Part shown: in pieces, positions 2,297 through 64,000 of the stretch
Layout of the letters: each line of letters opens with the position of its first letter
Numbering within the stretch: the stretch's first letter is position 1
NCBI RefSeq assembly: GCF_030540825.1
Contig: NZ_JAUOEO010000001.1
Coordinates: 3,361,001-3,425,000, forward strand
DNA from: Flavivirga spongiicola
GTDB lineage: Bacteria > Bacteroidota > Bacteroidia > Flavobacteriales > Flavobacteriaceae
Length of the DNA: 64,000 bases
Direction of reading: 5' to 3'
Notes under the pieces: generated by a model
Database searches by the model: none
What the model saw: only the letters and a program-made list of their open reading frames with translations
What the model was told of the DNA's origin: nothing
Translations under genes and position numbers: made by a program

Positions 2297-2454
2297 TACC
2301 AAATAAACATTAAAACAAGCCTTTTTAATTTGTTTCTTGTTCATTTTTCACAATAAAATAAAACCGTAGTTAACGGCTATGTTTGGGTTTTATATATTTA
2401 TCTGAGTATGATATAATTCAAATTCTTTAAGGTTTGTTTTAAAATTTATTGGTC
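2296..2454 (-). repeat. ~159-bp imperfect palindromic element (copy D)
   Basis: The two ends are inverted copies of each other: ACCAAATAAACATTAAAAC on the left, and on the right the complement of ACCAATAAATTTTAAAAC. The centre, read on the minus strand, contains CATAGCCGTTAACTACGG, which matches the cores of the elements at 48195 and 54094. The element starts on the last base of the kinase stop codon. It could act as a terminator or a structured RNA, or be a miniature mobile repeat; the sequence does not decide. Confidence 0.6.
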
Positions 2455-2645
2455 TCAAATTTGGTTAAAACCATGTGCTTTAGTTCTTTTCGCTTTTAGC
2501 TTCTAAAAATTTTTCTACTACGAATTTTACAAATTGTCACAAATTCATTATCGTGAATTCTCAAATAATGTTCCACATTTCACGAAGCAGATTTTCAGTC
2601 TGTCAAATAAAGATAGGAGTGGTTTGGTTGATATATTATTGATTG
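2455..2645. other. Intergenic remainder without a recognisable gene
   Basis: An AT-rich stretch between the palindromic element and the end of the O-methyltransferase gene. It contains a GAATTC-centred sequence (around 2552-2562) but no open frame, hairpin terminator or promoter that I would defend. Confidence 0.4.
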
Positions 2646-47087: not shown

Positions 47088-48167
47088 TTAAAGCCTAAAA
47101 ATTTCATAAGATTGATGCACCTGCTTTACAGCTGCTTCTGTACGTTCTGCATGAGTGTCGCTTATAAATAGCTGTCCAAAATTTTCATCATCTACTAATT
47201 TAATAATTTGAGCGACACGATGTTCGTCCAACTTATCAAAAATATCATCTAGTAATAAAATCGGATTGACACCACTTTGCGCTTTTATAAAATCGAATTG
47301 AGCTAGTTTTAGTGCAATTAAAAACGATTTTTGTTGACCTTGACTCCCGAATTTTTTAATAGGATGCCCTTCAATATTAAAATGTAAATCATCTTTATGA
47401 ATACCAACGCTCGTGTATTGTAACGCTTTGTCTTTATTGATGATATTTTTTAACAGTGTGTTTAAATCAGCTTCAAATAAATCGCTGTGATATTTTAAGT
47501 CAACTATTTCACTACCATTACTAATAGCTTCGTAACGCGACTTAAAGATGGGAATAAATTCCTTTAAAAAAGTATCTCGTTTTTCGAAAATACGAGTTCC
47601 AAAGTCTGTTAATTGATTGTTGTAAACTTCTAAAGTATCATTATTAAAGGTGTGGTTTAAAGCAAAATATTTTAGTAACGCATTACGTTGAGCCAGTATC
47701 TTATTATAGTTTATTAAATGGTTTAAATAGGTTTTATCGCTTTGTGAAATGACACTGTCTATAAATTTTCGTCTGGTATCGCTACCTTCAATAATCAAAT
47801 CTCTATCGGCTGGCGAAATAATCACTAAAGGTAAAAAACCAATATGTTCGCTAAACTTTTCATAAGCTTTAGCATTGCGTTTAATAACTTTTTTTTTACC
47901 TCGTTTTAAGCTAATAATTATTTTTTCAGTTTTATTATCCTTTTCATAATCACCATTAATCACAAAAAAATCTTCGTCATGCTTAATATTTTGTGTTGCC
48001 ACGGGGTTAAAGTAACTTTTTCCGAAGGATAAATGATAAATAGCATCGAGTACATTGGTTTTTCCAATACCGTTATTACCAACAATGCAATTTATTTTAT
48101 CATTGAAGGCAAATGATTTACTATCAAAGTTTTTATAATTAAGTAACGAAAGGGATTTTAAAATCAT
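47088..48167 (-). CDS. recF: DNA replication and repair protein RecF
   Basis: A 359-residue SMC-like ATPase acting in gap repair with RecO and RecR. The Walker A is [14 protein letters not shown] (about 30-43), the ABC signature region is [19 protein letters not shown], Walker B is [12 protein letters not shown], and the C-terminus has a D-loop-type FISDT. Length is normal. It is cotranscribed with the DUF721 gene; a 301-bp gap with a long palindrome separates it from the divergent TPR gene. Confidence 0.96.
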
Positions 48168-48194
48168 ATAATAAGCGACTTAAAGGCTATATTA

Positions 48195-48355
48195 TACCAA
48201 TTAAACTTCAAAATGACGAATATAATTCATTTCTTTTTTACTTAAATTTCTTCAAAAACAGAACCATAACTTCAGCTATGCTTAAGGTTTTTGACTTATT
48301 TAAGCAAAAAATAATTCAAATTATTTATGTGTTATTTTGAAATTCAATTGGTATT
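48195..48355 (-). repeat. ~161-bp imperfect palindromic element (copy A)
   Basis: The ends ATACCAATTAAACTTCAAAA and, from the other side, ATACCAATTGAATTTCAAAA are inverted copies. Pairing continues through TTTTTTACTTAAAT/TTTTTTGCTTAAAT. The centre on the minus strand is TTAAGCATAGCTGAAGTTAT followed by GGTTCTG, shared with copies B and D. It fills most of the 301-bp gap between recF and the TPR gene. Confidence 0.7.
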
Positions 48356-48435
48356 TGTTGCTAAACTCTTTAAAAAGAAGTGCAAATTATTGAAAAATAT
48401 CAAATAAATACCCTTTTAGTTATGAAGAAAAATTA

Positions 48436-53220: not shown

Positions 53221-54089
53221 TGACTTCGCTCTCTCAAGACATAAAAGATAAATTGTCCAGACTTAATGTGCTAGAAAAAATTATAGCCATTAATGTCATT
53301 GTTTTTGTGTTAGGTTTACTTTTAAAATCTAGCTTAGGTTGGTTTGAATTACCAAGTGATTTTTCTGATTTTATAATAAAGCCATGGGCCATTATAACCT
53401 ATGCTTTTTTGCATTACGATTTTTGGCATCTATTTTTTAATATGCTTTGGCTGTATTTTATAGGGCGTATGTTTTTAAACTTATTTAGCCCTAAAATGGC
53501 ACTGAATATTTATTTTTTAGGTGCTATGGCTGGAGGTTTATTATATATGTTATGTTACACAGCGTTTCCTAATGTATTTCAATCAAACTCAAGATTGTTA
53601 GGAGCTTCGGCTGCTGTGAGGGCTTTATTAATTTTTCTTTGTGCTTACATGCCAAATCAAGAGCTGCGTTTTTTTACATTTAATTTAAAACTGTGGTATG
53701 TGGGTGTTGCCATTGTAATAATAGATATCATTGGCGTGTTTTCTGGAATTAATAACCCAACAGGTGGTAATTCCGGTGGTTATTTAGCGCATCTTGGAGG
53801 TGTGCTATTAGGCTATTTTTATGCAAAACAATTATTAAAAGGGCAAGATATAGGCAGAGGTTTTGAAAGTATTATGGATGCTGTTTTTAACATGTTTAAA
53901 GCAACAAAAAAAGGGCCGTTAAAAACAGTACACAAGAACAAATCGAAAGTTGGAGGATACACTAAATCAGATTTTAAAGAGTTTAATAATCAAAAGAAAA
54001 TAGACATTATTCTAGATAAGATTAGTAAAAGTGGCTATGATAGCTTAACTGCTGAGGAAAAAGAATTTTTATTTAGAGCGGGAAAATAG
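53220..54089 (+). CDS. Rhomboid-family intramembrane serine protease (2)
   Basis: A 289-residue rhomboid with HYDFWHLFFNMLWLYFIG, the serine in LLGASAAVRALLI and the histidine in AHLGGVLLGY. The motif around the nucleophile is GASA rather than GASG. It has a cytosolic C-terminal tail of about 70 residues. The ATG at 53220 overlaps the preceding stop (TAATG); an ATG nine bases earlier is the alternative. Tandem with another rhomboid and mutL, a flavobacterial arrangement. Confidence 0.92.
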   Translation: MTSLSQDIKDKLSRLNVLEKIIAINVIVFVLGLLLKSSLGWFELPSDFSDFIIKPWAIITYAFLHYDFWHLFFNMLWLYFIGRMFLNLFSPKMALNIYFLGAMAGGLLYMLCYTAFPNVFQSNSRLLGASAAVRALLIFLCAYMPNQELRFFTFNLKLWYVGVAIVIIDIIGVFSGINNPTGGNSGGYLAHLGGVLLGYFYAKQLLKGQDIGRGFESIMDAVFNMFKATKKGPLKTVHKNKSKVGGYTKSDFKEFNNQKKIDIILDKISKSGYDSLTAEEKEFLFRAGK

Positions 54090-54093
54090 TTTT

Positions 54094-54255
54094 ATACCAG
54101 TTCTTGTTTGATATTATCGTAAAATAAAATGATGATTTTTTGCTTTATACGAAACATGAAAATAAGCCATAGCTATAGTTACGGCTCCTTTTTATGCTGA
54201 AGTAGAGAGGAGAAAAGGGCGTTTTATTACGGTAATATCACATGAGAAATGGTAT
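54094..54255 (+). repeat. ~162-bp imperfect palindromic element (copy B)
   Basis: The left end ATACCAGTTCTTGTTTGATA continuing TTATCGTAA pairs with the right end (ATACCATTTCTCATGTGATA continuing TTACCGTAA, read in reverse complement). The centre AATAAGCCATAGCTATAGTT followed by ACGGCTCC is shared with copies A and D although the arms are different. It begins four bases after the rhomboid stop codon. Confidence 0.7.
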
Positions 54256-54559
54256 TATCAAAAGGGATGAGAGAAGATAGTAATGAATAATCGCGTATTT
54301 GGGAGAAGAAATTCACTCGTTAATCGAAAAATTCTTACAAATTGAAATTTATAATTTATCTTCTCAGCTATTATTAAAAACTTCTGGTTTGGAGGTTTTA
54401 AATATTTTGGGGGCATGGATCAGCTTAATCCAGAACAAAATTAATCATCAGATATTCTATTTCAAATTTTCTACTAGAGCCTGTAACATGTTTACATGAA
54501 ACTAATCGAAAATTCGAAATAGAATTCTGTTTATCGATGGATGCTCTTCAAGCAATAAT
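54256..54559. other. Intergenic region without recognisable gene
   Basis: About 300 bp following the palindrome. A 66-codon open frame exists (54299-54499), but its composition does not look protein-like and it has no start context or neighbour logic. It presumably carries the promoter for the next gene. Confidence 0.4.
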
Positions 54560-63091: not shown

Positions 63092-63148
63092 GAAGTAGAA
63101 AGTGAAAAGGAACGTTTTACTACGGTTATCTTAAGTGAAGAACAGTAT
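63092..63148 (+). repeat. Possible half copy (copy C) of the palindromic element
   Basis: GAAGTAGAAAGTGAAAAGGA continuing ACGTTTTACTACGGTTATC resembles the right arm of the element at 54094-54255 (GAAGTAGAGAGGAGAAAAGG continuing GCGTTTTATTACGGTAATA). The matching left arm is not found. It would also be an open frame of about 20 codons, which I regard as chance. Confidence 0.4.
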
Positions 63149-63284
63149 AAGCTATAAAATTTTATTTTCGATAGTTCTACTATTTGTCGAATTACTGATT
63201 TTATGGGTTTTCATTCGCATAATTAAAGCAAGCCAATAGGAAAACAGGCAAACAAATTTTGCTCAAAATTAAAGAACAGGTACT

Positions 63285-64000
63285 TTAATCAATCAGGATC
63301 TCTAAAATCTTAATAGCTGCATCACTGATTTTGGTGCCAGGGCCAAATACAGCTATAGCACCAGTATCAAATAAGTATTGGTAATCTTGTTTTGGTATAA
63401 CACCACCTACAATGACCATAATATCATCACGGCCATAAGCTTTTAAGGCTTCAATAACTTGTGGTACTAAGGTTTTATGTCCTGCGGCTAATGACGAAAC
63501 ACCTAAAACGTGTACATCATTTTCAACAGCCTGTTTTGCAGCTTCTTGTGGTGTTTGAAATAATGGGCCAATATCTACATCGAAACCAACATCTGCGTAG
63601 CCTGTGGCTACTACTTTGGCACCCCGGTCATGACCATCTTGTCCCATTTTTGCAATCATAATACGAGGCCTTCTACCATCTTGTTCTGCAAAAACATCGG
63701 CAAGTTGTTGCGCTTTTTTAAAGGATTTATCGTCTTTTATTTCTTTACTGTACACACCAGAAAATGATTTTATTTGTGCTTTATAACGTCCAAATTCAAC
63801 TTCTAAAGCATCACTGATTTCTCCAAGAGTAGCGCGTTCACGAGCAGCTTCTACTGCTAAGGCTAATAAATTATAATCCTCGCGAAGGTGGGAATCTTTT
63901 GAGTCAATCTCTTGATTAGCTTTTGAATTTGGTTTATCCGAATTTAAGGAAAATTTAGCAGCTTCGGTTAATTTTAATAACGCCGACTTGACTTTTTCGG
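63285..64000 (-). CDS. Methylmalonyl-CoA mutase large subunit, C-terminal part (5' end outside window)
   Basis: The frame is open to the window edge, so this is the end of a larger gene. The last about 135 residues are the cobalamin-binding domain: [20 protein letters not shown] contains the DxHxxG (DGHDRG) that supplies the cobalt-ligating histidine, then [15 protein letters not shown] [11 protein letters not shown] and the late [11 protein letters not shown] and FGPGT. Preceding it is the end of the catalytic barrel ([24 protein letters not shown] ... [11 protein letters not shown]). The mutase interconverts methylmalonyl-CoA and succinyl-CoA. A GTG at 63755 is not the real start. The linker before NLLALAV appears lengthened by a repeat-derived insertion (see findings). 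Confidence 0.92.
63875..63896. repeat. Dispersed repeat inside the mutase coding sequence
   Basis: AATCCTCGCGAAGGTGGGAATC is a close variant of CATTCCTGCGAAGGCAGGAATC found in gaps at 11223 and 56714. Here it is translated in frame on the minus strand as part of KDSHLRED. Confidence 0.55.

Follow-up and report, generated by a model that had tools for sequence, protein, structure and literature searches.

The palindromes of about 160 bp in the Flavivirga spongiicola window (the whole stretch of 64,000 nucleotides that was analysed, positions 3,361,001 to 3,425,000 of contig NZ_JAUOEO010000001.1) belong to a real, mobile, MITE-like family that is wider than the three window copies show. Copies of this family have moved, as units and with a 3-bp target duplication. 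Two features are unlike those of an ordinary MITE, namely a usual length and core kept under unrelated ends, and a fold specific to one strand. The explanation we judge probable, taken as a whole, is that of a non-autonomous, MITE-like fold-back unit served by an enzyme acting in trans, whose mobility would depend on both its fold and its tips and whose arms would occasionally be copied onto each other.

Palindromes in the window

The initial annotation had placed a trio of palindromes of about 160 bp in the window. All three were confirmed at those places, with their limits refined so that the duplicated target is left out (Table 1). Each carries the core CATAGC..TAYGG, seen from the opposite strand as CCRTA..GCTATG, and the form with a six-base spacer occurs twice in the window against 0.03 occurrences expected from shuffles. 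In the copy at 2297-2454 the TAA on the left flank is the stop codon of the upstream frame, and the last base of the right tip is changed. The frames beside the copies are presumably response-regulator-like (2100-2293), RecF-like (48000-48168, minus strand) and the end of a rhomboid-like protein (53800-54088).

An inverted-repeat search with default settings returned arms of 22-29 nt in two of the window elements. It called no inverted repeat over 54000-54350 because the arms of that copy are interrupted by mismatches. The minus strand of 54090-54258 folds 4.8 standard deviations below 200 dinucleotide shuffles, none of which is as stable, so the arms of this copy are more complementary than shuffled sequence.

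Table 1 Palindrome copies, flanks and cores in the window, and short forms found elsewhere.
Feature	Position or locus	Strand	Length	Remarks
Type A palindrome	54095..54254	+ (strand reading CATAGC..TAYGG)	160 bp	Limits from sequence and covariance model
Target copies of 54095-54254	Left TTA 54092..54094, right TTA 54255-54257			Identical
Core CATAGC-N6-TACGG, apical hairpin, of 54095-54254	54168..54184	+
Type A palindrome	48195..48353	- (CATAGC strand is minus)	159 bp	Limits from sequence and model
Flanks of 48195-48353	Left TTA 48192-48194, right TTT 48354-48356			One base differs
Core CATAGC-N6-TATGG of 48195-48353	48264..48280	-
Type A palindrome	2297..2454	- (CATAGC strand is minus)	158 bp	Limits from sequence and model
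Flanks of 2297-2454	Left TAA 2294-2296, right TCA 2455-2457			One base differs
Core CATAGC-N7-TACGG of 2297-2454	2364..2381 (C1:3363364-3363381)	-		Genome-wide core search, coordinates converted
Short form, both ends kept	L111 (C1:939400-939900)		75 bp	Identical flanking triplets TAT
Short form, both ends kept	L107 (C1:3072700-3075260)		75 bp	Flanking triplets not identical
Short form, both ends kept	L400 (G009)		117 bp	Identical flanking triplets TTA

Copy number and distribution

Across the 5.9 Mb of the same genome the core pattern gave 98 matches, some of which are chance matches in coding sequence, against 19 for the pattern read backwards. A covariance model was built from 53 aligned copies, comprising 52 of 95 core matches (length 156-166, with matching tips) and the window copy at 2298-2453. 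With 150 of 11867 first-look candidates scored, this model found at least 133 matches at E 0.001 or better, so the window palindromes have many other copies genome-wide. The 133 matches fall in 113 places, 20 of which are matched on both strands. Identity to the nearest copy has a median of 90% and reaches at most 97.5%. Under simple frame calling, 103 of the 104 copies used (out of 108 own-genome matches) lie outside called frames. Nine copies, all of the type A defined below, start exactly at the end of a frame, which is expected where the target is TAA.

Occurrence of the family across the order is patchy. Model matches were present in 16 of 40 genomes (own genome included); these 16 include all 12 genomes of the genus, with 2 to at least 74 matches each when 74 candidates were scored per genome. 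Under stricter filters, 14 of 246 genomes of the order (own included) carried matches, representing 12 of 82 genera and four families. A scan for exact type B ends listed at least 80 stretches of named contigs. In 33 of these a matching second end lies 158-162 bp away (with 6 mismatches in 18 in two of the 33), on contigs from Aquimarina, Flavivirga, Snuella, Croceivirga, Algibacter and Lutibacter. Of the mobile-element collections, plasmids gave no match to the one type A and the one type B copy searched, and phages gave none to the type B copy. No description of the family was found in the literature by title or abstract, in a search that covered a minority of subscription papers, and words beginning with bacteroid or flavobacter are absent from the main text of a review of prokaryotic MITEs (PMC10969869).

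Pairing and covariation

Among the 53 aligned copies, 79.1% of cells pair, compared with 59.7% when partners are shuffled. Two-sided changes were found in 56 of 67 pairs, which bears out the observation in the initial annotation that the arms differ between copies yet stay complementary. The covariation score of 0.415 exceeds that of both controls, 0.143 in shuffles that ignore the relatedness of the copies (no shuffle among 500 comes up to 0.415) and no more than 0.144 in slid structures, and is significant in this sense. Type B taken alone scores 0.237 against 0.091 (none of 500 shuffles reach it) and at most 0.066 when slid, and its count of pair types was reached by 4 of 500 shuffles. RNAalifold predicted only the outer stem, both for type A and for the joint alignment.

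Terminal types under one architecture

Type A copies start with TACCA, and types B and C, counted together here as type B, start with GAACTC or GAAGTG. The ends of some copies are different again or damaged. The copies possess terminal inverted repeats, as expected of MITEs. In alignments of type A with type B the mean identity is 53.3%, against 51.2% with shuffled partners in a subset. Of the 108 own copies, 85 are 158-161 bp long with the core in the middle, as are 24 of the 28 from relatives, both sets being selections from the model matches; the spread in length is probably understated, since the covariance model derives from copies picked by core and length. GC of the copies is mostly 0.2-0.35.

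When only type A copies were used for training, a model that includes structure recovered 25 of the 30 type B loci (E 0.0005 or better); the match spans positions 1-160 in 24 of these, and in one locus the opposite strand matched as well. A sequence-only model made from the same type A rows found none of those type B elements among 30 loci, and its seven matches all lie in L161:867-1321, where a type A copy carries an insert, either within that copy or next to it. The cross-match from type A to type B suggests a shared architecture and is not proof of descent, because a share of the score comes from simply being a palindrome of that length.

Other unit lengths were seen, at 75, 117, 210-262 and 350-930 bp, and some of these units have duplicated flanks; 160 bp is thus not an absolute rule, which counts against our preferred explanation. 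In 30 stretches from genome G161, 13 units measure 160 bp, 10 measure 261-262 bp, 2 measure 255 bp and 3 measure 210-225 bp, while 2 lack a found end; identical flanking triplets were seen in 20 of these stretches. The units of 350-930 bp in genome G009 are type A copies whose core holds a further repeat that looks non-coding, and in one G009 copy (L398) the end belongs to a different terminal type.

Other repeats were observed in association with the palindromes. In G009 (L392-L399 and L161:867-1218), a repeat with ends CAATGTCATTAAGTTAAGG lies within the core CATAGCCTAGTT of several copies; it displays an apparent 8-bp direct repeat GCCTAGTT, and the insert varies in size and orientation. 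Similar insertions of about 50 bp (GATTCAYGAAC..GTGAGCTAAA) enlarge copies in two genera (L355, L364 and L373 in G161, L401 and L392 in G009). A short repeat around CCCAGTCAAGCTGAGCACATG in the own genome, which we regard as a second small dispersed repeat, sits inside copies, giving forms of 183-184 bp, or replaces one terminal repeat (L034, L039, L188, L189; L035, L052, L077, L193, L196).

Evidence of movement

Target duplications were counted with boundaries fixed by the tip motifs, both of which were found in 81 of 108 own matches and 22 of 28 matches from relatives; counts from boundaries set with a bonus for duplications were discarded. The chance level was taken from 5000 shuffles in which flanks were re-paired. 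Against 16.8 expected (largest shuffle 28), 33 of the 47 type A copies of the own genome have identical 3-bp flanks; for its type B copies the figures are 24 of 34 against 5.5 (largest shuffle 13), and for type B copies from relatives 7 of 10 against 1.3 (largest shuffle 6). Type A copies from relatives have 8 of 12 against 4.1, which stays within the range of the shuffles (largest 9) and counts against the explanation we prefer. Type A targets are mostly TAA or TTA, which raises the chance level of its duplications, and type B targets are varied AT-rich triplets. Across duplication lengths of 2, 3, 4, 5, 8 and 9 and offsets of -2 to +3, only 3 bp at offset 0 was prominent.

A search with joined flanks returned junction-spanning matches for six places, three of which we counted as clean empty sites. 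One is the site of a type A copy at C1:413048, inserted inside an older type B copy; 27 loci match across this junction, some of them representing the same place. Another is the own-genome copy L044, whose empty counterpart in Flavivirga rizhaonensis (L284) is 78% identical over 291 bp. For the third, a G009 copy (L384), the empty counterpart is the window itself at 63096-63345, with 78% over 250 bp.

Search for a driver

None of the transposase profiles Y1_Tnp, rve and DDE_Tnp_1_2 tracks the copies over 40 genomes. The rve profile was rejected as a driver because it has no match in G001, G006, G008, G010 and G025, which hold 50, 62, 67, 16 and 42 palindrome matches, respectively. DDE_Tnp_1_2 was likewise rejected, with matches in G008 and G009 only among the 40 genomes. 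The own genome has two DDE_Tnp_1 genes (three matches), and the best six inverted-repeat pairs per locus are unlike the palindrome ends. As a separate observation, G001, G006 and G008 combine many copies with few recognisable rve-type transposases.

To look for genes recurring beside copies, 642 frames taken at 188 loci were compared all against all; of the five clusters listed, none was transposase-like by eye. Nineteen of the stretches beside unpaired type B ends in the own genome held no convincing partner for a longer element with such ends. Among the 80 named stretches, seven ends have a partner-like end 0.9-4.5 kb away; these seven pairs have no matching flanking triplets and, by eye, no transposase-like frame between them. 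Neither an autonomous element nor a transposase with matching ends was present in the stretches examined. For accepted MITEs, too, the autonomous partner is often missing.

Strand-specific folding

Among 148 units of 145-175 bp, 142 have a lower RNA folding energy on the CATAGC strand than on the opposite one (mean -46.7 vs -33.9 kcal/mol). The CATAGC strand also folds better in 20 of 22 representatives sharing <66% identity, the exceptions being L201 and L065, the latter a copy with an overwritten arm. This strand folds better because its mismatched and bulged positions hold little C; bulges and clustered mismatches are A-rich (79 copies). A folding advantage of this kind is what selection on the folded strand would leave, and it does not separate RNA from DNA. 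The asymmetry hints at a functional single-stranded form, judging from predicted folds, and could be partly inherited composition. We rejected tolerance of G.U pairs as proof of RNA (A.C 157 vs G.T 41 on the modelled strand of own copies), as bulged bases show the same C over G skew as the mismatches and A.C mismatches are not specially enriched given the marginals.

Explanations

In the explanation we prefer, copies insert as a fold-back unit with duplication of three target bases, and the 3-base staggered insertion would be the work of an enzyme acting in trans, with a DDE-type transposase as the likeliest candidate. The arms would stay complementary because mobility needs matching ends. Mobility would also need the CATAGC strand to fold into a single long stem topped by the conserved apical hairpin, and occasional arm-to-arm copying would reset arms that have diverged. 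A bolder reading, conceivable but on the unlikely side, holds that the element is defined by shape, with the CATAGC strand in folded form, whether RNA or single-stranded DNA, recognised through its long stem of set length and fixed apical hairpin by a driver outside the tested profiles. If shape is what is read, then ends and target preference (TAA or TTA in type A, varied AT-rich triplets in type B) could change while mobility is kept. It is unlikely, in our estimation, that the family is an ordinary MITE with an unselected fold, in which the transposase reads the tips only and replication or repair copies one arm onto the other. Copying of this kind is favoured by L065, where the inner right arm resembles a copy of the left arm more than it does the right arms of the family and looks like a recent overwrite of left onto inner right. 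It is further favoured by two-sided changes that are far commoner than one-sided ones on the modelled strand, and by alternative arm versions that related copies carry in a single arm or in both. Most terminal-arm comparisons are mixed in direction, however, so we rejected conversion tracts as a general rule. Copying is also strand-symmetric, so it cannot alone account for the folding advantage seen in 20 of the 22 dissimilar representatives, the fixed core, or the usual length kept under unrelated ends. The initial annotation had proposed that selection or a copying mechanism preserves the hairpin; copying gains support from the overwrite in L065 and selection from the strand asymmetry, and both may act on the arms.

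A functional non-coding RNA, in which a putative transcript of the CATAGC strand forms a hairpin that works in the cell or in the element's own mobility, seems distinctly improbable to us. It would account for the covarying structure (as measured against shuffles blind to relatedness) and for a better-folding strand whose unpaired positions are C-poor, with A-rich bulges and clustered mismatches. Against it, the window and 19 loci have no Rfam match at the gathering threshold, the CATAGC strand shows no clear preference of direction among copies between codirectional genes (35 along vs 25 against), and the G.U argument is confounded by composition. The initial annotation had also offered a miniature transposon, a reading strengthened by the 3-bp duplications and empty sites, and a palindrome mobilised by a host protein. 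We regard the RAYT form of the latter, a REPIN-like single-stranded DNA element moved by a Y1 transposase, as very improbable. The own genome does have one Y1_Tnp gene, and a hairpin unit of set length that is extragenic and carries compensatory changes is as described for REPINs in the accessible part of PMC3116915. RAYT was nevertheless rejected as the driver, because G025 (with its 42 palindrome matches), G014 and G016 (genomes of 80% and 90% completeness, respectively, for the last two) have copies but lack a Y1_Tnp match, and copies are absent from several genomes that do have Y1 genes. The CATAGC strand also shows no preference for replication direction (48 vs 44, with replichores guessed from the skew of sampled stretches). 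The copies duplicate three target bases, something not expected of Y1 transposases.

Relation to known elements

Even as an ordinary MITE, this would be a high-copy, patchily distributed family of Flavobacteriales that we did not find described in the literature searched by title and abstract. It makes testable, within one family, whether it is selection on the fold or copying from arm to arm that maintains palindromes. Integron attC sites offer one parallel, for they have a conserved fold with little conserved sequence, and one strand is active. The palindromes likewise keep a fold over little conserved sequence and favour one strand, but they are dispersed singly with duplicated targets.

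Correia/NEMIS, ERIC and RUP elements are, in the accessible parts of PMC2229807 and PMC10969869, shorter than 200 bp, A+T-rich, gene-free and mostly intergenic, with terminal inverted repeats and target duplication. On the same sources, the palindromes share these traits, and transcripts of either would form long stems; unlike those MITEs, the palindromes have a 3-bp duplication with no TA rule in type B, and several unrelated terminal types under one length and core. The strand-specific folding advantage is a further point of comparison, measured in the palindromes alone. YPAL/RU-2 of Yersinia, as far as the accessible part of PMC2229807 describes it, is a palindromic unit of about 168 bp that is not A+T-rich and has duplications of 3 to 26 bp. 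A palindromic unit of near length and target duplications are thus common to both, whereas the palindromes here have a 3-bp duplication and the low GC given above. REPINs keep their length and hairpin capacity through compensatory changes, according to the accessible part of PMC3116915, and in this the palindromes resemble them. The palindromes differ from REPINs in having 3-bp duplications and no association with Y1. Ordinary MITEs are read as double-stranded ends, and for REPINs it is single-stranded hairpins that are believed to be recognised. Were the fold of a single strand what is read here, the palindromes would be a family inherited by shape across unrelated sequences and yet inserted by staggered cuts, a combination that would place them between ordinary MITEs and REPINs.
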